From an uncultured Ruminococcus sp. (GTDB lineage: Bacteria; Bacillota; Clostridia; Oscillospirales; Acutalibacteraceae), in assembly GCA_902794395.1 (NCBI GenBank), contig CADBHB010000002.1:1-64000 (forward strand): a DNA stretch of 64,000 bases, read 5' to 3'. The notes beneath the pieces were generated by a model. The model was given only the letters and a program-made list of their open reading frames with translations. It did no database searches and was not told the origin of the DNA. The position numbers and the translations under genes are program-made. Positions 23,689 to 32,135 of the stretch are shown here, one piece after another. How positions within the stretch are numbered: position 1 is the first letter of the stretch; each line of letters opens with the position of its first letter.

Positions 23689-25431
23689 TCAGATGCCTTT
23701 TTCTCTCTTGACATAAGAGGTGTGCAGCAGCTCGTGCGCCTTGTGGGAGCCGGGCTCGCCGAGGTATTCCTCATAGATAGCCTTGATTTCGGGGTTGTCG
23801 TGAGATTTTCTGTAGGGCAGGTTTACATCGTCCTCATAGAGAGCCTTTGCTCTGAGCGCCTTGAGGTCAACGAAGTTTCTGACGTGACCGGGCTGGATGG
23901 GCTGACCGCCGCCGTTGACGCAGCCGCCCGGGCAGCACATGATCTCGACGAACTGATAGTCGGCTTCGCCCGCGCGGATCTTGTCGAGTACGACAGCCGC
24001 GTTCTTAAGACCGGAAACTACCGCTACCTTTACGGTCATGCCGGCAACCTCATAGGTGGCTTCCTTGATGCCTTCGGTGCCGCGCACTTCGTTGTATTCG
24101 ATCTGTTTGAGATCCTCGCCGGTAAGCTTGTCGGCAACGGTTCTCAGCGCCGCTTCCATTACGCCGCCGGTGGCGCCGAAGATAGTGCCCGCGCCGGAGC
24201 CGATAGCCATGATGGGATCGAAGTCAGCGTCCTCGAGAGAGGTGAACTGGATACCCGCGCGCTTTATCATCTTGGCGAGCTCTCTGGTGGTGATGGAGAT
24301 GTCGTTGTCCTGCATGCCGTCGCGGCCCTGGTGGTCGCGCTTGATCTCAAACTTCTTGGCTACACAGGGCATTACCGATACGACAACGATGTCCTTGGGG
24401 TCGATGCCCGCCTTTTCGGCGTAGTAGGACTTTATCATAGCGCCCTGCATCTGCTGGGGTGACTTGCAGGTGGAGAGGTGCGGGATGAAGTCGGGATAGT
24501 AATGCTCGCAGAACTTGATCCAGCCGGGTGAGCAGGAGGTTATCATCGGCAGCACGCCGCCGTCCTGTACGCGGTGGATAAACTCGGTGCCCTCTTCCAT
24601 GATGGTGAGGTCGGCGCCGAAGTTGGTGTCGAACACCTTGTCAAAGCCGAGCATCTTGAGCGCCGCTACCATCTTGCCGGTTACGTTGGTGCCGATGGGC
24701 ATATCGAAGCACTCGCCGAGGGTGGCGCGGATGGAGGGAGCGGTGTGAACTACCACATGCTTGGTGGGATCCGCGATAGACTCGAACACCTTGTCGGTGT
24801 CGTCGCGCTCGACCAGAGCGCCGGTGGGACAAACCACGGTGCACTGACCGCAGCTTACGCAGGAAACATTACCGAGATCCTGATCGAACGCGCAGGAGAT
24901 CATGGTGTCGAAGCCGCGGTTGTTGGCGCCGATGACTGAAACGAACTGGTTCTTACAGGCGGCTACACAGCGGCGGCAGAGGATGCACTTGTTGTTGTTT
25001 CTTACAAGATGCAGAGTGGTGTGATCCTCTTCGTAATGGGTCTCCTCGCCCTCAAACTTCTTTTCGTCCACGCCGTATTCCAGGCAGAGCTGCTGCAGTT
25101 CGCAGTTGTTGCTTCTGGGGCAGGACAGGCACTTCTTGTCGTGGTTGGACAGAAGCAGCTCGAGGTTCATTTTTCTGTATTTCTGGATCTGGGGAGTATT
25201 TGTAAAGATTTCGGTGCCCTCTCTGTCGATGGGATATACGCAGGCAGCAACCAAGCTGCGGGCGCCCTTTACCTCGCAAAGGCACATACGGCACGCGCCG
25301 ATCTCGTTGATTTCTTTCAGAAAGCATAAGGTCGGGATTTTAATGCCGAATTTGTGGCAGGCTTCCAGGATGGTGGTGTTTTTCTCAACCTGATAATCCT
25401 TGCCGTTGATTTTGATATTCAACATTTCCAT
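23689..25431 (-). CDS. hndD: [FeFe]-hydrogenase catalytic subunit (HndD/HydA type)
   Basis: 580 residues, normal for HndD. Order: N-terminal [2Fe-2S] domain (CHKFGIKIPTLC ... CRMC), His-ligated cluster region (HDKKCLSCPRSNNC), two [4Fe-4S] motifs (CILCRRCVAAC, CVSCGQCTVVC), then the H-cluster domain. H-cluster loops: L1 TSCSPGW, L2 MPCVAKKFE, L3 EIMCCPGGCVNGGGQP. L1 has Ser where simple alignment places the second Cys of TSCCP. Together with HndA, B and C it forms a cytoplasmic, probably electron-bifurcating complex linking NAD(P)H and ferredoxin to H2. Maturases HydEFG are not in the window. AGGAG precedes the ATG. Confidence 0.93.
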   Translation of the reverse strand: MEMLNIKINGKDYQVEKNTTILEACHKFGIKIPTLCFLKEINEIGACRMCLCEVKGARSLVAACVYPIDREGTEIFTNTPQIQKYRKMNLELLLSNHDKKCLSCPRSNNCELQQLCLEYGVDEKKFEGEETHYEEDHTTLHLVRNNNKCILCRRCVAACKNQFVSVIGANNRGFDTMISCAFDQDLGNVSCVSCGQCTVVCPTGALVERDDTDKVFESIADPTKHVVVHTAPSIRATLGECFDMPIGTNVTGKMVAALKMLGFDKVFDTNFGADLTIMEEGTEFIHRVQDGGVLPMITSCSPGWIKFCEHYYPDFIPHLSTCKSPQQMQGAMIKSYYAEKAGIDPKDIVVVSVMPCVAKKFEIKRDHQGRDGMQDNDISITTRELAKMIKRAGIQFTSLEDADFDPIMAIGSGAGTIFGATGGVMEAALRTVADKLTGEDLKQIEYNEVRGTEGIKEATYEVAGMTVKVAVVSGLKNAAVVLDKIRAGEADYQFVEIMCCPGGCVNGGGQPIQPGHVRNFVDLKALRAKALYEDDVNLPYRKSHDNPEIKAIYEEYLGEPGSHKAHELLHTSYVKREKGI

Positions 25432-25448: not shown

Positions 25449-27257
25449 TTAAGCCTTATAGATAGCTTTAAACTTACAGGTAGCCATACAAGCGCCGCAC
25501 TTGATACACTTCTTGGGATCGATCTCGAGAGCGGGACGTCTCTTGCCGGGAGCGGTGTAGTCGGTGACGGAGATCGCCTGTGTCGGGCACTTTCTGGAGC
25601 AGAGTCCGCAGCCCGCGCACTTCTCTCTGTCGATGGTGTATTCGAGCAGGTCTTTGCAGACGCCCGCGGGACATTTCTTGTCGCGGATGTGGGCGATGTA
25701 CTCGTCCTTGAAGTAACGGAGAGTGGAGAGAACGGGGTTGGGAGCGGTCTGTCCGAGGCCGCACAGGGAGTTCGCCTTGATGAATTCGCACAGCTCCTCC
25801 ATCTCGTCGAGCATTTCCATGGTGCCCTGACCCTTGGTGATCTTCTCCAGCATTTCAAGCAGTCTCTTGGTGCCGATACGGCAGGGAGTACACTTGCCGC
25901 AGCTCTCGTCAACGGTGAACTCGAGGAAGAACTTGGCTACGTCTACCATACAGTTGTCCTCGTCCATAACGATCAAGCCGCCTGAGCCCATCATTGAGCC
26001 GATGGCGAGCAGGTTGTCGTAGTCGATGGGTACATCGAGGTGCTCAACGGGGATACAGCCGCCGGAGGGACCGCCTGTCTGGGCAGCCTTGAACTTTTTG
26101 CCGTTGGGGATGCCGCCGCCGATCTCAAATACGATCTCGCGCAGGGTGGTGCCCATGGGGATCTCTACCAGACCGGTGTGGTTGATCTTGCCGCCGAGCG
26201 CGAACACCTTGGTGCCCTTGCTCTTCTCGGTGCCCATTGAGGCAAACCAGTCGGCGCCCTTGAGGATGATCTGCGCGATGTTCGCGTAGGTTTCAACATT
26301 GTTGAGGATGGTGGGTTTCTGATACAGACCCTTTACCGCCGGGAACGGAGGACGGGGTCTGGGCTCGCCGCGCTTGCCCTCGATGGAGGTCATAAGAGCG
26401 GTCTCCTCGCCGCAGACGAAGGCGCCAGCGCCGAGACGGAGCTCCATGTCGAAATTGAAGCCTGTGCCGAAGATGTCCTCGCCCAGCAGACCGTATTCGC
26501 GCGCCTGGTCGATGGCGATCTGCAGACGCTTAACGGCGATGGGATATTCCGCGCGGACATATACGCGGCCCTGAGAAGCGCCGATCGCGTAGCCCGCGAT
26601 AGCCATAGCCTCGATCAGGGAGTGGGGGTCGCCCTCGAGAACGGAACGGTCCATAAAGGCGCCGGGGTCGCCCTCGTCGGCGTTACAGCATACATACTTT
26701 TGGTCGGCGTCGTTCGCCGCGGCAAACTTCCACTTCAAGCCTGTGGGGAAGCCCGCGCCGCCTCTGCCGCGCAGTCCGGAATCGAGGATAGTCTGGATGA
26801 CCTCCTCGGGAGTCATTTCGGTGAGAACCTTGCCCAGAGCGGCGTAACCGTCACGGGCGATGTAGTCGTCGATCTTTTCGGGGTCGATGACACCGCAGTT
26901 GCGCAGCGCCACACGCTTTTGCTTGGCGTAGAACGCGGTTTTGTTGAGGGACTTGATGGTGTCCTCCTCAACAGTCTCCTGGTAGAGCAGACGGGTTACG
27001 ATCCTGCCCTTTAAGAGGTGCTCCTCGACGATCTCGGGGATGTCCTCGATTTTAACCATGGAATAGAAGCTGCCCTCGGGATATACCACCATGATGGGAC
27101 CGAGCGCGCACAGACCGAAGCAGCCTGTGGTTATAACGTTTACTTCTTTTTCAAGACCTTGCTTTTTGATTTCTTCTTTCAGCTTTTCAGCGATCTGCAA
27201 GCTGTTTGAGGAAGTACATCCGGTACCGCCGCAAACAAGCACATTAGAACGATACAT
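25449..27257 (-). CDS. hndC: NuoF-like flavoprotein subunit of hydrogenase (HndC/HydB)
   Basis: 602 residues. N-terminal thioredoxin-like [2Fe-2S] domain (CGGTGCTSS ... TTGCFGLCALGP), NuoF core with FMN/NADH glycine loop (GRGGAGFPTG) and NADEGDPGAFMDR, and a [4Fe-4S] motif SCGKCTPCRIGTKR. The C-terminal extension has two [4Fe-4S] clusters (CAGCGLCSRKC, CIKCGACMATC). This matches the subunit that holds the bifurcating flavin in trimeric and tetrameric hydrogenases. 17 bp upstream of hndD; AAAGGAGG ribosome site. Confidence 0.93.
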   Translation of the reverse strand: MYRSNVLVCGGTGCTSSNSLQIAEKLKEEIKKQGLEKEVNVITTGCFGLCALGPIMVVYPEGSFYSMVKIEDIPEIVEEHLLKGRIVTRLLYQETVEEDTIKSLNKTAFYAKQKRVALRNCGVIDPEKIDDYIARDGYAALGKVLTEMTPEEVIQTILDSGLRGRGGAGFPTGLKWKFAAANDADQKYVCCNADEGDPGAFMDRSVLEGDPHSLIEAMAIAGYAIGASQGRVYVRAEYPIAVKRLQIAIDQAREYGLLGEDIFGTGFNFDMELRLGAGAFVCGEETALMTSIEGKRGEPRPRPPFPAVKGLYQKPTILNNVETYANIAQIILKGADWFASMGTEKSKGTKVFALGGKINHTGLVEIPMGTTLREIVFEIGGGIPNGKKFKAAQTGGPSGGCIPVEHLDVPIDYDNLLAIGSMMGSGGLIVMDEDNCMVDVAKFFLEFTVDESCGKCTPCRIGTKRLLEMLEKITKGQGTMEMLDEMEELCEFIKANSLCGLGQTAPNPVLSTLRYFKDEYIAHIRDKKCPAGVCKDLLEYTIDREKCAGCGLCSRKCPTQAISVTDYTAPGKRRPALEIDPKKCIKCGACMATCKFKAIYKA

Positions 27258-27270
27258 TCAGTGACCTCCT

Positions 27271-27645
27271 TTAGTTATCCATCGCGCCGATGGTGAATTC
27301 AGTTACCACGTTTTTGTTTACAAGGTGGTCGTTGACGATCCTGACGACCTTTTCGGGCGTCATCTTTACATAGGTCACCTTTTCCTGACCGGGGATCTCC
27401 ACCTCGACAACCGGCTCATACTGGCAGATGCCGATGCAGCCTGTCTGGGTAACTACGATGTCATCCTGCAAGCCGCGCTTGGCGATCTCCTCGGTGAAGG
27501 CGTTGAGCACGGGTCTGGCGCCCGCCGCGATGCCGCAGGTAGCCATGCCCACCAATACGCGCGCCGCGTTGGGGTTTTCTTTTCTTAAGGCGACATTTGC
27601 TTTCGCTCTGTCGCGGATAGCCTGTAACTCGGCTAAAGATTTCAT
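27271..27645 (-). CDS. hndB: Thioredoxin-like [2Fe-2S] subunit HndB
   Basis: About 124 residues, a small thioredoxin-like ferredoxin with Cys in VGMATCGIAAGARP and TQTGCIGICQYEP. The same fold is found at the N-terminus of HndC. In Desulfovibrio the matching subunit is HndB of the NADP-reducing hydrogenase; trimeric Thermotoga-type enzymes lack it, so this is a tetrameric Hnd-type complex. GGAGG lies nine bases before ATG 27645. The start overlaps the upstream ATPase stop by four bases (ATGA). Confidence 0.88.
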   Translation of the reverse strand: MKSLAELQAIRDRAKANVALRKENPNAARVLVGMATCGIAAGARPVLNAFTEEIAKRGLQDDIVVTQTGCIGICQYEPVVEVEIPGQEKVTYVKMTPEKVVRIVNDHLVNKNVVTEFTIGAMDN

Positions 27646-28196
27646 AATTCTGCACCTCCGCAAATATTTTCAGTTTGTTCTTTCAAAAATTGTTCTATCC
27701 ATTCCACCACGTCGGGGGTGTCAAGGCTGACGCCCTCCAGAACCTCCCGCAGCTCGCGGGTGTCGAGCGTGAAGGAGCCGCTGTCTGTAGTGCGGGTGTA
27801 GACAAAATCGATGTCGGGATTGCAGCGGATGAGAATGGATACCGTGGAGTTGATGTCCCCCAAAGGGGTCATGTCCACGTGACTTTTGACATAGCTCGCC
27901 TGTGTGCGCGTGCCCTGTCCGAGCGTGGAACGGATGTTGAAGCTGCCGCCGGTCTGTTCGGCGGACATTTTGAAAAGCGGCACGCCCAGCCCCACCTTGC
28001 GGGTGGTGCGGGTGGTGAAAAACGGGTCGATGACCTGATTCACCTGCTCCTCTGTCATTCCGCAGCCGTTGTCGCTGATGGTGATGGTAAGAAAGTCGTC
28101 CTTGTCGCTTTCCTCCACCGTTATCTCGACCAAAGTCGCCTCAGCGCGCACCGAATTCTGCGCAACATCCATCACGTTGAGCGATAACTCACGCAT
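27642..28196 (-). CDS. Stand-alone GHKL ATPase in the hnd operon
   Basis: 184 residues with a histidine-kinase-type ATP-binding domain only. N-box NVMDVAQNSV, G1 DNGCGM, and G2 VGLGVPLFK are visible; there is no His-phosphorylation (HisKA) domain, no sensor and no membrane segment. The C-terminal 60 residues are unrelated to known domains I recognise. The start (28196) overlaps the hndA stop by eight bases and its stop overlaps hndB, so it is translated in step with hydrogenase subunits. It may be a protein kinase or switch for the complex, like SpoIIAB-type kinases. The role is unknown. Confidence 0.75.
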   Translation of the reverse strand: MRELSLNVMDVAQNSVRAEATLVEITVEESDKDDFLTITISDNGCGMTEEQVNQVIDPFFTTRTTRKVGLGVPLFKMSAEQTGGSFNIRSTLGQGTRTQASYVKSHVDMTPLGDINSTVSILIRCNPDIDFVYTRTTDSGSFTLDTRELREVLEGVSLDTPDVVEWIEQFLKEQTENICGGAEL

Positions 28197-28689
28197 CCTT
28201 GTACTTTTCGAGGATGCCGGGTACGTCGGCAACGGTCAGTCTGCCGTAAACCTCATCGTTGACGGTGAGTACGGGCGCAAGACCGCAGGCGCCGATGCAG
28301 CGGCACGCTGTGAGCGAGAACTTGCCGTCGGGGGTACATTCCTCCGCCTCAATGCCGAGCAGCTCGGAAAGCTTGTTGAGAATGTCGCCCGAGCCCTTTA
28401 CATAGCAGGCGGTGCCGAGGCAAACGGAAATGTTGTATTTGCCCTTGGGGGACAGCGCGAACTGCGAATAGAAGGTGGATACACCGTAAACCTCCTCAAG
28501 CGGAACGCCTAAGCCCTCTGCCACCATTGTCTGGACCTCGATGGGCAGATATCCGTAGATTTCCTGCGCCTCCTGAAGCACGGGCATAACCGCGCCGGGG
28601 TCATCCTGATATTTCGCGATGACTTCCTTCAGCTTTGCCTCCTGCTCAGGTGTGCCCGAAAACGGGATACTGCTGATTTTTTTCTGCAT
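28189..28689 (-). CDS. hndA: NuoE-like [2Fe-2S] subunit of hydrogenase (HndA/HydC)
   Basis: 166 residues. Helical N-terminus, then a thioredoxin-like fold with the four [2Fe-2S] cysteines in VCLGTACYVKG and CRCIGACGLAP. First gene of the operon hndA-ATPase-hndB-hndC-hndD. It carries electrons to and from the NuoF-like subunit. GGGAGG is upstream of the ATG. Confidence 0.92.
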   Translation of the reverse strand: MQKKISSIPFSGTPEQEAKLKEVIAKYQDDPGAVMPVLQEAQEIYGYLPIEVQTMVAEGLGVPLEEVYGVSTFYSQFALSPKGKYNISVCLGTACYVKGSGDILNKLSELLGIEAEECTPDGKFSLTACRCIGACGLAPVLTVNDEVYGRLTVADVPGILEKYKDA

Positions 28690-28771: not shown

Positions 28772-28800
28772 ATTATAACACAAATGAATGAAAATGTCTA
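28772..28800 (-). promoter_or_regulatory. Promoter of the hnd operon
   Basis: On the minus strand TAGACA (28800-28795), a 17-bp spacer and TATAAT (28777-28772), about 80 bases upstream of hndA. Confidence 0.75.
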
Positions 28801-28867
28801 CTAAAGATTTTGCCTGTTTTGTCGAAATGTGCTATTTTTTTATGGCAAATGACAAAAAGTGCCGCTG

Positions 28868-29575
28868 TCAGTCCAGCGCCGCCAATACGTTTTCGGCGCT
28901 AAGCGACCCAAGCTCCAAAAAGTTTTCCGCTTCACGCATATTTTCAAGGTAGTGGGCGTCGGAACTTGTGACGATGTGAAGCGTGTCCAGTATAGGGTGC
29001 TGCGCCCGCAGAGCGTCAAGCCGAGATATATCCGCGAGCTCGGCGGTCCTGAAGCCGCAGGCAGGGTCGATCTCTCCCAGCACCGAGAGAATAGACAGGC
29101 TGTCGCGGTCGATATGGGCGGGGTAACAGATGCCTCCGAAATCCTTTACCTTGCGGTAGGCGGAGCCGATGCCGATGTCGGTGGCGGGCAAAAGCAGGTG
29201 CTCTATCTCCCCCGTTTCCTCATCGTGCTCGTTCATAATGACCTGTCTGCCGTAGATGTCGGGACGGTTGCGTATCTTGATGCGGTGGTCGTCGACGTAG
29301 TCGTTCCACAGCAGCGCCTGCTCCAGCGTGGGAAACAGACACACCGCGTGGATGTCCTCAGAGGTGGTAAGCTCCATCCCCGGGATAACCAGCAGCCCTA
29401 TTTCCCTGCCGACAGCCATAGCCGCTGCGCAGTTGCGCGAGGAATTGTGGTCGGTCAGGGCGATAACATCCAGCCCCAGCAGCTTCGCCATATTGACGAG
29501 GTTGTTTGGGGTCATGTCCATGTCGCCGCAGGGCGACAGGCAGGAGTGCAGGTGCAGGTCGTAGAACGCTTTCAT
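28868..29575 (-). CDS. PHP-domain phosphoesterase-like protein
   Basis: 235 residues, single PHP domain. Metal-binding motifs: DLHLHSCLSPCGD at the N-terminus, ALTDHNS, and SSDAHYLENM near the end; the middle shows CYPAHIDR. The family includes histidinol-phosphate phosphatase and RNase AM/TrpH-type nucleotide phosphatases; the real substrate is unknown. Last gene of a five-gene cassette with DRTGG and HydS-like genes, overlapping the previous gene by four bases (ATGA). The constant link with hydrogenase genes suggests a signalling role. Confidence 0.8.
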   Translation of the reverse strand: MKAFYDLHLHSCLSPCGDMDMTPNNLVNMAKLLGLDVIALTDHNSSRNCAAAMAVGREIGLLVIPGMELTTSEDIHAVCLFPTLEQALLWNDYVDDHRIKIRNRPDIYGRQVIMNEHDEETGEIEHLLLPATDIGIGSAYRKVKDFGGICYPAHIDRDSLSILSVLGEIDPACGFRTAELADISRLDALRAQHPILDTLHIVTSSDAHYLENMREAENFLELGSLSAENVLAALD

Positions 29576-29901
29576 CGGAGCAAGCCGCTGATCTTCACCG
29601 CCAGCGCGTAGCTGTTTTCCTCGGTCTGAAGGATGGTGACGCCGTGGATATTCGCCTTGTTGCGCGCGTCGGTATCAAGGGCGGCGTTTTCCACCAGCAC
29701 TATGCAGCTGACATCAGCCAGCGTTGCCACGGCTATGGAATTAATGTTGCCCATTACGGTCAGCCACACGCTGTCCTCGGGCGCTCTGCCCATTACCCAG
29801 CTGAGCAGGTCGCCTATGTAGCAGTCTGTCACCTCGCGGTCGAGGTCGCCCTCTACCAGGATAGTCAATTTTAATTCTTCTATCAAATCTTTTACAGTCA
29901 T
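29572..29901 (-). CDS. DRTGG-domain protein (second copy)
   Basis: 109 residues, one domain resembling the DRTGG domain, which is found next to HPr kinase and phosphotransacetylase catalytic domains. It has the pattern LVEGDLDREVTDCYIGDLLSWVM and then CIVLVENAALD. It is a paralogue of the protein at 31.7-32.1 kb: both have EGDLD followed by a D(L/M)(L/M)S(W/D)V core. Here the domain stands alone, with no kinase. Probably a small-molecule or protein adaptor in the cassette. Confidence 0.72.
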   Translation of the reverse strand: MTVKDLIEELKLTILVEGDLDREVTDCYIGDLLSWVMGRAPEDSVWLTVMGNINSIAVATLADVSCIVLVENAALDTDARNKANIHGVTILQTEENSYALAVKISGLLR

Positions 29902-29968
29902 AGTTTTAAGCAGTCACTTGTCAAATTTTGATTGTTTGTTTCGGTCATGGGCGGTCAGGGCTTTCCGC

Positions 29969-31243
29969 TTAAATAGTTCCTTTAAGCTGGTCGTACACGT
30001 TCTGTATCTTCTCGCGCAGCTTAAAGATGCAGTCGGTCTCCTTCGCCTTGCCGCGAACTATGTCCTCGGCAAGCGCGCGGCAGGTAGGCGCGCCGCAGGA
30101 GCCGCAGTCGAGGTGAGGCAGCCCTTCGAGTATCTCCTCCATCTCCGACATCATGTTCATCGCCTTGGCGATGTCCTTGTCCAGACGGAAAATATCGGCG
30201 TCGTAGTTCAGCTCGTTTTCCCAGAGCATCCGCTCAAGGTCGCCGTCCTCCATATGGTTGAGCGACACGGGCAGGAACTTGCGCAGGGTCTGGATGCGCG
30301 CCTGAGCAACATATGCGTTCTCGACGTTGAGCACTCCGCCCACGCAGCCGCCCGAACAGGCGTTCAGCTCGATGAAGTCCACGCCGCGGATATGCTCGTC
30401 CTCCAGCTCCTCAAGGACGCGGATCACGTTTTCGATGCCGTCGGCGGCAAGGTATTTATCGCCCAGCATCGCCGCGGCTTCACCTCCCGAGGTCGCCCAG
30501 CCTATGCCCATCAGACCGGACTGTCCCAGCGGCTCCACCTCCCTCAGGTGATCCATAACCTGGGTGAGCTCGGGGTAGATCTTTGAAATGGCTATCGCCG
30601 CGTCGACCTCGGACTTCTCGGTGGAGTTTGGCGCGTGAATCTCCGTGACCTTGGCGGGACAGGGCGAGATGAAGAATATGCCGATCTGTTCGCGCGAAAG
30701 TCCGGTTTTTTCCATAGCCCTGCGCCGCGCAACGCGCGCCGCCACCTCGATGGGCGCCAGCAGGGGCATAACATTGTCACACAGCTCGGGGAAGCGTATC
30801 TTGATAAGCCTTACCACGGCGGGACAGGCTGAGCTGATGATAGGCTTTTTCAGCTTGTTTTCCTTTATCAGCTTGCGCGTTGCCTCGGAAACCAGCTCGG
30901 CGGCGCGGCTTACCTCGAACACATCGTCAAACCCCAGCTGCTTGAGCCCCGTGAGCACGAAGTCGATGCTCTCGAGGTTATTGAACTGCCCGAACAGCGC
31001 GGGCGCGGGGATCGCCACTGTGTATTTATATTGTATGATTTCCTCCAGCTTATTGCTGTTAGCCTTCTTTGCGTGGTGCGGACAAATGCGGATGCACTCG
31101 CCGCAGTCTATGCAGCGCTCAGAAAGGATCTTCGCCTTGCCGTCGTGCACGCGGATAGCCTCGGTGGGACAGCGCTTGAGACAGTTGGTGCAGCCGCAGC
31201 AGCGGTCGGCGTCAAGCTGGACGGAGTGATAGTATTTGTTCAT
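29969..31243 (-). CDS. HydS-like iron-sulfur protein with [FeFe]-hydrogenase-like domain
   Basis: 424 residues. The N-terminus has two [4Fe-4S] motifs (CCGCTNCLKRC, CIDCGECIRIC). The centre is an H-cluster domain with altered loops: SSACPAVV in place of TSCCPxW, SPCPAKV, and NACSGGCVGG without the usual GGGQP. The C-terminus has another Fe-S motif (LDCGSCGAPTC ... C). The cysteine that passes protons in active enzymes is Ala, while the cluster-ligand cysteines remain. This pattern is known from sensory HydS-type (group C/D) proteins, which bind an H-cluster but turn over slowly. It has no PAS domain or kinase of its own; it sits between GHKL ATPase and DRTGG genes. Proposed as the hydrogen or redox sensor of the locus. 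Confidence 0.82.
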   Translation of the reverse strand: MNKYYHSVQLDADRCCGCTNCLKRCPTEAIRVHDGKAKILSERCIDCGECIRICPHHAKKANSNKLEEIIQYKYTVAIPAPALFGQFNNLESIDFVLTGLKQLGFDDVFEVSRAAELVSEATRKLIKENKLKKPIISSACPAVVRLIKIRFPELCDNVMPLLAPIEVAARVARRRAMEKTGLSREQIGIFFISPCPAKVTEIHAPNSTEKSEVDAAIAISKIYPELTQVMDHLREVEPLGQSGLMGIGWATSGGEAAAMLGDKYLAADGIENVIRVLEELEDEHIRGVDFIELNACSGGCVGGVLNVENAYVAQARIQTLRKFLPVSLNHMEDGDLERMLWENELNYDADIFRLDKDIAKAMNMMSEMEEILEGLPHLDCGSCGAPTCRALAEDIVRGKAKETDCIFKLREKIQNVYDQLKGTI

Positions 31244-31295
31244 AAAAACCTCAATGAAAACTGGTTGGGACGGCGCAAGTCAAGCAAGGCGGCGC

Positions 31296-31724
31296 TTATT
31301 GGTTGACTCTTACGGTCAAGTACAGCTTGGTTCCCACGCCTATGGTGGTGTCGATGCGCATTTCGTCGCTGTATTTCTTGATGTTCGGCAAGCCCATGCC
31401 TGCTCCGAAGCCCAGGCTGCGCACGTTGGCTGGCGCGGTGGAATAGCCCTCCTGCATAGCCTTTTCCACATCGGGGATGCCGGGGCCGCGGTCGGAAAGC
31501 AGGACCTCTACCCTGTCGGGATAGATGTCCACGTCGCAGAAACCGCCCTCGGCGTGGATGACCATGTTGATCTCCGCCTCGTACATAGCTATCGCTACGC
31601 GGCGGATGGCGTCGGGGCTGTAGCCGAGAGATTTAAGACGCTTTTTGACAGCGCCGCTCGCCTCGCCCGCGCGGGTAAAGTCCTCGCCCGAGACCTCGTA
31701 GTGAAGATGTATCGCGTTGCTCAT
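31296..31724 (-). CDS. SpoIIAB/RsbW-like GHKL ATPase
   Basis: 142 residues, an ATP-binding domain of the anti-sigma-factor kinase class. N-box AMYEAEINMVIHA, G1 DRGPGIPD, and G2 LGFGAGMGLPNIKKYSDEM. No sigma factor or anti-anti-sigma (STAS) partner is nearby. The start overlaps the upstream DRTGG gene by four bases (ATGA). With the DRTGG proteins as possible partners or substrates, it is likely the signalling kinase or switch of the cassette. Confidence 0.78.
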   Translation of the reverse strand: MSNAIHLHYEVSGEDFTRAGEASGAVKKRLKSLGYSPDAIRRVAIAMYEAEINMVIHAEGGFCDVDIYPDRVEVLLSDRGPGIPDVEKAMQEGYSTAPANVRSLGFGAGMGLPNIKKYSDEMRIDTTIGVGTKLYLTVRVNQ

Positions 31725-32068
31725 ACCTTGGTACCTCCCGACAGTCCGTTAGTGTAAAGCCGTCCGCAGGCGGTGAACATTCTGAAACGGGTTTTGATAA
31801 GGGTGATGCCGCGCTGCTCCGCAAGGCTGATGATGGATTCGTCGGGCATTTTGCCGCGCACAAAGACGATGCACGCCATGTCCATCATTTCGGCGGTGCG
31901 CACCACCTGAGGGTTCACAAGCCCAGTCAGCAGCACCGACTGATCCTTTACAAACGCCAGCACGTCGCTCATCATGTCGGAGCCGCAGGCGGTTTTGATC
32001 TCCTGATCGAGGTCGCCCTCGCAGATGATCTCACCCTCCAGAATGTCGATGATATCCTTTACGATCAT
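31721..32068 (-). CDS. DRTGG-domain protein (first copy)
   Basis: About 115 residues, a stand-alone DRTGG-like domain with CEGDLDQEIKTACGSDMMSDVLAF and ACIVFVRGK, paralogous to the second copy at 29.6-29.9 kb. The start is placed at 32068: AAAGGA is about nine bases upstream, inside the longer frame. First gene of the cassette DRTGG - GHKL - HydS-like - DRTGG - PHP, all on the minus strand with two four-base overlaps. Confidence 0.72.
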   Translation of the reverse strand: MIVKDIIDILEGEIICEGDLDQEIKTACGSDMMSDVLAFVKDQSVLLTGLVNPQVVRTAEMMDMACIVFVRGKMPDESIISLAEQRGITLIKTRFRMFTACGRLYTNGLSGGTKV

Positions 32069-32106
32069 AGTGATACATCCTTTCAATTCATTAAATATAC
32101 ATTGTC

Positions 32107-32135
32107 ATTATAGCATAGTTATTTGTCAATGACAA
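32107..32135 (-). promoter_or_regulatory. Promoter with palindromic -35 for the sensory cassette
   Basis: On the minus strand TTGTCA (32135-32130) and TATAAT (32112-32107), 17-bp spacer. The -35 lies in the 13-bp palindrome TTGTCAATGACAA (32123-32135), a possible operator. Confidence 0.65.

Follow-up and report, generated by a model that had tools for sequence, protein, structure and literature searches.

Group D (M2e) [FeFe] hydrogenase proteins, known as HydS, are termed 'putative sensory', and the identification of their partners was called critical by a 2026 study (PMC13104023). M2e genes, classed as sensory, have been listed in Clostridium thermocellum, Caldicellulosiruptor, Clostridium phytofermentans and Thermoanaerobacter; they usually lie upstream of bifurcating hydrogenases, often with a kinase between (PMC3561251). 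The protein from Thermoanaerobacter mathranii (TamHydS) reacts with H2 (PMC8163306). For the group C (M2f) HydS of Ruminococcus albus a Ser/Thr phosphatase subunit has been proposed (PMC6776011), and in C. thermocellum Cthe_0427, annotated as SpoIIE, comes after Cthe_0425-0426 (PMC3848806). Here we analyse a row of five genes in a 64,000-nucleotide stretch of DNA from an uncultured Ruminococcus sp. (the window; contig CADBHB010000002.1). The row runs on the minus strand from 32068 down to 28868 and encodes a DRTGG protein (DRTGG-A), a GHKL ATPase, HydS, a second DRTGG protein (DRTGG-B) and a PHP-family phosphoesterase. We find that, judged from genome sequences, the five genes are a unit both in gene order and in presence and absence.

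The open-licence literature searched, with subscription papers outside its scope, yielded no description of the five-gene set, only HydS and a nearby kinase. The first-pass annotation of the window had put the row forward as its main candidate for an undescribed signalling system; the HydS of the row is not undescribed, its features being those already described for group D (M2e; PMC8163306).

Gene order and joint presence

In the window the genes form a tight row, with 4-base overlaps at the DRTGG-A/GHKL and DRTGG-B/PHP junctions only and gaps of 52 and 67 bases at the remaining two. The earlier description, tightly packed with overlapping starts, is therefore right about the packing and right about the overlaps at two of four junctions. 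In order to see the arrangement elsewhere, we compared 141 same-class loci: the window and 140 fetched HydS neighbourhoods (from the 142 HydS-positive genomes, less G017 and G113). They were scored with profiles that had been built up from the window proteins using those same 141 loci. In 123 of them the five genes share one strand and the window's order, with median junction gaps of -1, 23, 10 and -1 bases. Nine of the 18 loci without the full order (L051, L052, L090, L097, L102, L108, L132, L155 and L162) end no more than 1.1 kb from HydS on the side where genes are missing; in the others PHP is separated from DRTGG-B (L083, L117, L138, L141), DRTGG-B and PHP are missing (L053, L065), or HydS stands alone (L171, L172, L176).

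The full order recurs in 76 of 80 named loci, many titled as rumen or gut samples; these are the best 80 of 570 matches and hence close relatives. Across the phylum, HydS matches were found in 151 of 378 genomes drawn (E 1e-90), and five of six loci from outside the class carry the whole ordered row. In the remaining one (L283:1-1555) the GHKL ATPase is fused behind a CBS domain and DRTGG-A was not found in the stretch; the 5' end of the fused frame adjoins, by eye, a transposase-like frame. No fusions among module proteins were found in 233 loci: over-long frames of DRTGG-A, DRTGG-B and GHKL, considered as candidates, proved by eye to be out-of-frame extensions. No HydS relatives were found in viral contigs. 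One genome, G048, has a second DRTGG-A followed by two short frames that match pieces of HydA (L189:8124-8923), an arrangement that looks like a remnant cluster.

Presence and absence were scored in 293 same-class genomes, HydS being counted at E below 1e-80; three genomes whose HydS hits were only of about 1e-43 to 1e-45, and three in which the DRTGG-A hits ranged from 1e-11 to 1e-19, were left out of the counts. HydS, DRTGG-A and GHKL were each matched in 142 genomes and PHP in 140; 136 genomes have all four and 146 have any. HydS and DRTGG-A occur together in 139 genomes, HydS alone in 3, DRTGG-A alone in 3 and neither in 148, counts that are identical for GHKL. The corresponding figures for HydS and PHP are 139, 3, 1 and 150. 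Fisher's test gives p values, uncorrected for shared ancestry, of 4e-76 for HydS with DRTGG-A or GHKL and 1e-79 for HydS with PHP. The agreement extends to single genera: among genomes with a genus label, HydS is present and absent in 1 and 6 genomes of g25, 3 and 3 of g34, 3 and 1 of g23, and 1 and 3 of g88, and DRTGG-A, GHKL and PHP track it in each; in g34 three genomes have all and three none. Ten genomes hold part of the four; several of these break at contig ends, and G170, G193 and G031 look real. The first-pass annotation had named beforehand, as one result that would speak against its cassette, a lack of co-occurrence in other genomes. Over the 293 genomes the genes were found to come and go together, and this agreement, along with the order kept in 123 of 141 loci, bears out the five genes as a real unit.

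The five proteins and their relatives

HydS (29969..31243, minus strand, as are all features below; 424 amino acids) is recognized by Pfam (Fe_hyd_lg_C, 121.4 bits against a cut-off of 22.1; FeS PF04060, 51.4 against 23) and by its conserved cysteines. Two N-terminal [4Fe-4S] motifs are followed by the H-cluster domain, and a further Fe-S motif, Cx2Cx4Cx16C, lies at the C-terminus. The N-terminal cysteines 15, 18, 21, 25, 44, 47, 50 and 54 are all present in the window protein and each in at least 139 of 141 aligned rows; the H-cluster cysteines C140, C195, C296 and C300 are kept in all 141, as are C-terminal cysteines 380, 383 and 388, with C405 in 140. Position 139, which corresponds to the proton-transfer cysteine (C299 of CpI), is alanine in the window and in 115 of 141 rows, and cysteine in none. 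Ser or Thr precedes the second H-cluster Pro-Cys in 140 of 141 rows, and among Pfam hits up to E 0.01 the window protein has PF04060 and no PAS domain. TamHydS has the same domain layout, likewise without the proton-transfer cysteine and without PAS, has Ser/Thr replacing M353 and the same Cx2Cx4Cx16C motif, and its gene too is upstream of a bifurcating hydrogenase (PMC8163306). By these published features the window HydS is of group D (M2e) type, and in this comparison of features nothing sets it apart from the group to which TamHydS belongs. The earlier view of it as a sensory-type protein is thereby upheld: it lacks the proton-transfer cysteine and PAS and has an extra C-terminal Fe-S motif.

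The GHKL ATPase (31296..31724; 142 amino acids) matches Pfam HATPase_c_2 (38.6 bits, cut-off 27.4), and its ATP-binding residues E49, N53, D78, G80, G82, G105, G107, G109 and G111 are kept in 132 of 132 rows. Against sequences of solved structures at E 1e-6 its only relatives are four SpoIIAB sequences (best E 6e-12); against the curated NCBIfam SpoIIAB family it scores 50.3 bits, below the cut-off of 135. The alignment retains the N-box Glu and Asn and the DxGxG motif of SpoIIAB/RsbW. A further difference lies in the partners: SpoIIAB/RsbW acts with a sigma factor and a STAS protein, and Pfam finds neither among the five window genes, nor a STAS domain in these and the five genes of the neighbouring hnd operon.

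DRTGG-A (31721..32068; 115 amino acids from an ATG, with a TTG start at 32086 also possible) and DRTGG-B (29572..29901; 109 amino acids) score 35.2 and 28.3 bits against the Pfam DRTGG cut-off of 25.2. Ser34 is present in all rows of both (129 of DRTGG-A, 133 of DRTGG-B); Asp31 and Thr48 are each invariant in DRTGG-B and near-invariant in DRTGG-A (128 of 129). The AlphaFold model of DRTGG-A (pLDDT 88.8) has the DRTGG fold, with AF1212 (2ioj) as its best match in the Protein Data Bank (TM-score 0.83) and TM-scores of 0.71-0.76 to the CBS-DRTGG regulatory region of a pyrophosphatase (3l2b/3l31). The window proteins differ in being a stand-alone pair with an Asp-x-x-Ser of their own, for which alignments to AF1212 show no equivalent. 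A STAS-like fold, considered for DRTGG, was absent from the 50 fold matches listed.

The PHP protein (28868..29575; 235 amino acids) matches PF02811 at 32.5 bits (cut-off 26.4). Residues H8, H10, D42, H43, E68, H76, H154, D206 and H208, the presumed metal ligands in this family, are conserved in 129 of 129 rows. The folds closest to its model (pLDDT 97.6) are those of EndoQ, RNase AM and their relatives, and its 11 NCBIfam hits all fall below cut-off, giving no named equivalog. The earlier suggestion that these four proteins could serve as output parts remains a plausible one.

Neighbouring operons

The hnd operon begins 178 bases downstream of the row, which the first-pass annotation had likewise placed just upstream of hnd. 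It encodes an HndA/NuoE-like subunit (28189..28689; Pfam and NCBIfam), a stand-alone HATPase (K; 27642..28196; Pfam), a thioredoxin-like 2Fe-2S protein (27271..27663; Pfam), an HndC/NuoF-like flavoprotein (25449..27257; Pfam) and HydA, an NADH-dependent [FeFe] hydrogenase of group A6 (23689..25431; NF040763, 883.5 bits against a cut-off of 765). K, absent from the first-pass list, is a sixth protein that accompanies the unit even at some loci lacking hnd. Promoter-like sites, each with 11 of 12 consensus matches, precede both the five genes (32107..32135; TTGTCA-17-TATAAT with TG before the -10) and hnd (28772..28800), and a terminator-like hairpin lies at the end of PHP (28863..28878). Such consensus matches are not functional evidence: the region scanned gave 11 promoter-like sites, where shuffles gave 4.6, and 13 terminator-like sites, where shuffles gave 9.9. 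The placing of these sites suggests that the five genes may be transcribed apart from hnd.

To define the usual neighbours, we used the 91 same-class loci in which the full pentad is flanked by 4 kb or more in each direction, hnd being scored as two or more subunits within 4 kb. The pentad is beside hnd in 69, rnf in 2, pyrK in 9 and none of these in 11. In the 69, hnd lies downstream in 50, flanks the pentad with NuoE upstream in 13, is divergent in 4 and is upstream in 2. Of the 69, 68 have K near the pentad, as do 4 of the remaining 22. In three further genomes (G276, G181 and G231; families f63 and f70), DRTGG-A, GHKL, DRTGG-B, PHP and K precede rnf and HydS is elsewhere in the genome. Loci L178, L179, L180, L171 and L176 show this arrangement, in which the four partners and the HATPase lie directly upstream of rnf genes, and in L171 and L176 the lone HydS is near another Rnf/Nqr-like operon; RnfC, RnfD and RnfA of L178 exceed the NCBIfam cut-offs. 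All nine pyrK loci come from one family (f10) and may therefore go back to one event. Pfam confirmed PyrK in a single locus, and likewise PyrD. In L113 and 14 other loci from related genomes PyrK and PyrD follow the module, probably through a single lineage-specific event. Pfam did not confirm a PyrE-like frame after these two, and a frame 4.5 kb upstream in 10 loci, considered as a PP2C phosphatase, showed only a LysM domain in the one member scanned. The 22 of 91 loci without hnd, together with the partners placed before rnf, indicate that the unit does not belong to hnd, even if that operon is the one most often found next to it. Hnd is a putative target of the unit.

Published locus tags are consistent with a similar layout in other genera. 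In C. thermocellum Cthe_0335 is HydS and the hydrogenase genes are 0338-0342 (PMC3990059); in T. mathranii the corresponding tags are Tmath_0862 and 0865-0869 (PMC3608648). Going by the numbering, each leaves exactly two genes, as would be expected for DRTGG-B and PHP. Caldicellulosiruptor saccharolyticus Csac_1857 and 1862-1864 leave four tags, where DRTGG-B, PHP, NuoE and K would be expected on the same reckoning. From gene order and the Tmath tags of PMC3608648, the AraC regulator reported beside TamHydS would by position be DRTGG-B.

A candidate regulatory module

Joint inheritance, intact motifs and a sensor-type HydS together argue that the five genes form a regulatory module of some kind, which we consider likely. 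With less assurance, though on balance in its favor, we read it as HydS plus dedicated transduction proteins through which anaerobes inform their NADH- and ferredoxin-linked enzymes of the hydrogen or redox state. On contact of its H-cluster and N-terminal clusters with H2 or reduced carriers HydS would shift in conformation, and the shift would control the SpoIIAB-like ATPase, acting as serine kinase or partner-switching protein. The DRTGG proteins would be partners of the ATPase, with Ser34 the probable site of modification or ligand binding and an adenine nucleotide possibly sensed too; PHP, by analogy, would be the phosphatase that resets the system. The target, usually the bifurcating hydrogenase Hnd and sometimes Rnf, would then be acted on by DRTGG or the ATPase in free or modified form, either directly or via a sigma or transcription factor coded elsewhere. 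The likeness of GHKL to SpoIIAB and the invariant serine common to both DRTGG proteins point to a kinase, and the CBS-GHKL fusion of L283 suggests a nucleotide input; the cycle of GHKL kinase, DRTGG and PHP as drawn here is tentative and somewhat less likely than not.

Group C offers a parallel. There, as in the window, a bifurcating hydrogenase and a Spo-like regulator are the neighbours of a sensor-type hydrogenase (PMC3561251, PMC3848806, PMC6776011). Group C has PAS and a PP2C/SpoIIE-type phosphatase, whereas group D has no PAS and has GHKL, DRTGG and PHP instead. In G055, which also carries the group D module, a PAS-bearing group C-like HydS adjoins a SpoIIE-domain protein (L275:3592-9059), a parallel that supports a Spo-like logic. 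Frames like NuoE, NuoF and HydA, assigned by eye, neighbor this PAS-HydS.

The notion of H2 as signal rests on the published work on TamHydS, and whether H2 rather than general redox is the main signal we regard as an even call. The window's own genome has matches to the maturases HydE, HydF and HydG side by side on one contig (C20). HydG was sought in 293 genomes (E 1e-60), HydF in 80 and HydE in 33 (curated cut-offs), and the 26 HydS genomes described next were included in each search. HydG is present in 194 genomes, 112 with HydS and 82 without. Hydrogen as the signal, the premise of the first-pass annotation, is weakened by the 26 of 142 HydS genomes without a HydE, HydF or HydG match above these thresholds. 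They include G055, a single contig, G217 and G118. Another strong [FeFe] hydrogenase domain is carried by 23 of the 26, so the gap concerns hydrogenases in general; for this reason we did not use maturase absence as proof against an H-cluster in HydS. G073, G124 and G189, all draft assemblies, show no H-domain besides HydS. HydA adjoins the module at 9 loci of HydG-less genomes, including 7 of the 26, and there it has intact motifs. In G276, a single contig, HydE and HydF were not found and the HydG match is weak.

Several observations weigh against the module as we read it. The maturase-less genomes are one, being awkward for H2 sensing where they occur. No component for the output step was recognized, as Pfam finds no DNA-binding, sigma, STAS or response-regulator domain in any of the five proteins; the literature searched yielded no expression or interaction data for them, and the C-terminal cluster of TamHydS is unresponsive to H2 (PMC13104023). 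By fold, the nearest enzymes to PHP act on nucleic acids and nucleotides (EndoQ, RNase AM), a likeness that leaves the choice of substrate wide; a YwqE/CpsB-type tyrosine phosphatase was rejected on weak matches (YwqE E 0.02, Cps4B E 0.2). Some genomes depart from the full set: G170 has DRTGG-A and a divergent GHKL with no HydS or PHP match; G193 (G193:C44:72171-73748) has GHKL and PHP, the PHP frame with one stop codon, and no HydS match; PHP is lacking in G031, a single contig, and in G093. Unbiased clustering of neighbours covered only the 76 loci without recognized hnd or rnf and was judged by eye, so an output partner may have been missed.

What, then, of other explanations? That gene order is conserved here with no joint function is very improbable. 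Shared ancestry does mean that Fisher's test overstates significance, but the genes are present or absent together within single genera, the four partners are retained jointly when HydS is elsewhere, and the pentad stays intact across several arrangements relative to hnd. The first-pass reading, in which HydS senses H2 and the other four regulate the expression or activity of hnd only, is a more serious contender, if still an unlikely one. It draws on the 69 of 91 pentad loci beside hnd, on the reaction of TamHydS with H2 and the position of its gene upstream of a bifurcating hydrogenase (PMC8163306), and on the locus-tag spacing in C. thermocellum and Caldicellulosiruptor, which is consistent (PMC3561251). 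It sits poorly with the 22 loci lacking two or more hnd subunits within 4 kb, two of them at rnf and nine (f10) before pyrK, with the three more genomes that place the other four genes before rnf and HydS elsewhere, and with the draft genomes that have no H-domain besides HydS.

Two further explanations assign the unit a different task. It might serve the assembly, repair or activity state of large flavin/Fe-S NADH oxidoreductases, with GHKL and DRTGG as chaperone-like factors driven by ATP, HydS as electron donor and PHP as nucleotide hydrolase. The recurrent neighbours Hnd, Rnf and PyrK are NAD-linked flavin/Fe-S proteins, and Pfam gives no DNA-binding domain for any of the five proteins; both points speak for it. 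None of the families is, to our knowledge, a recognized assembly factor, and the 82 genomes with HydG and no HydS indicate that H-cluster enzymes are made without the module; we consider this quite unlikely. Somewhat less so, though still improbable, is an energy-charge module in which DRTGG (CBS in L283) binds an adenine nucleotide, for instance AMP, ATP or Ap4A, and gates GHKL, HydS supplies the redox input and PHP degrades the nucleotide. DRTGG-A resembles in fold the regulatory CBS-DRTGG region of the pyrophosphatase, CBS is fused to GHKL where DRTGG-A was not found, and PHP is nearest to nucleotide and nucleic-acid enzymes. Set against this, nucleotides of the CBS-pyrophosphatases bind CBS and not DRTGG, and the fusion is a single find with its 5' end beside a transposase-like frame.

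If the regulatory module is as we read it, its architecture may be new: a hydrogenase-derived sensor that would gate a SpoIIAB-type kinase with stand-alone DRTGG substrates and a PHP reset, re-wirable among the bifurcating hydrogenase, Rnf and perhaps other NADH-linked enzymes. We offer this full picture as a possibility, and a somewhat doubtful one; if true, it would be a redox-sensing counterpart to sigma-factor partner switching. The survey also points to redox control of Rnf, which would not be expected from the hydrogenase reading by itself. For group D HydS the analysis provides four concrete partner candidates, which stand with it in 123 of 141 same-class loci. The set spans rumen and gut Clostridia and, as locus-tag spacing suggests, would extend to C. 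thermocellum, Caldicellulosiruptor and Thermoanaerobacter.

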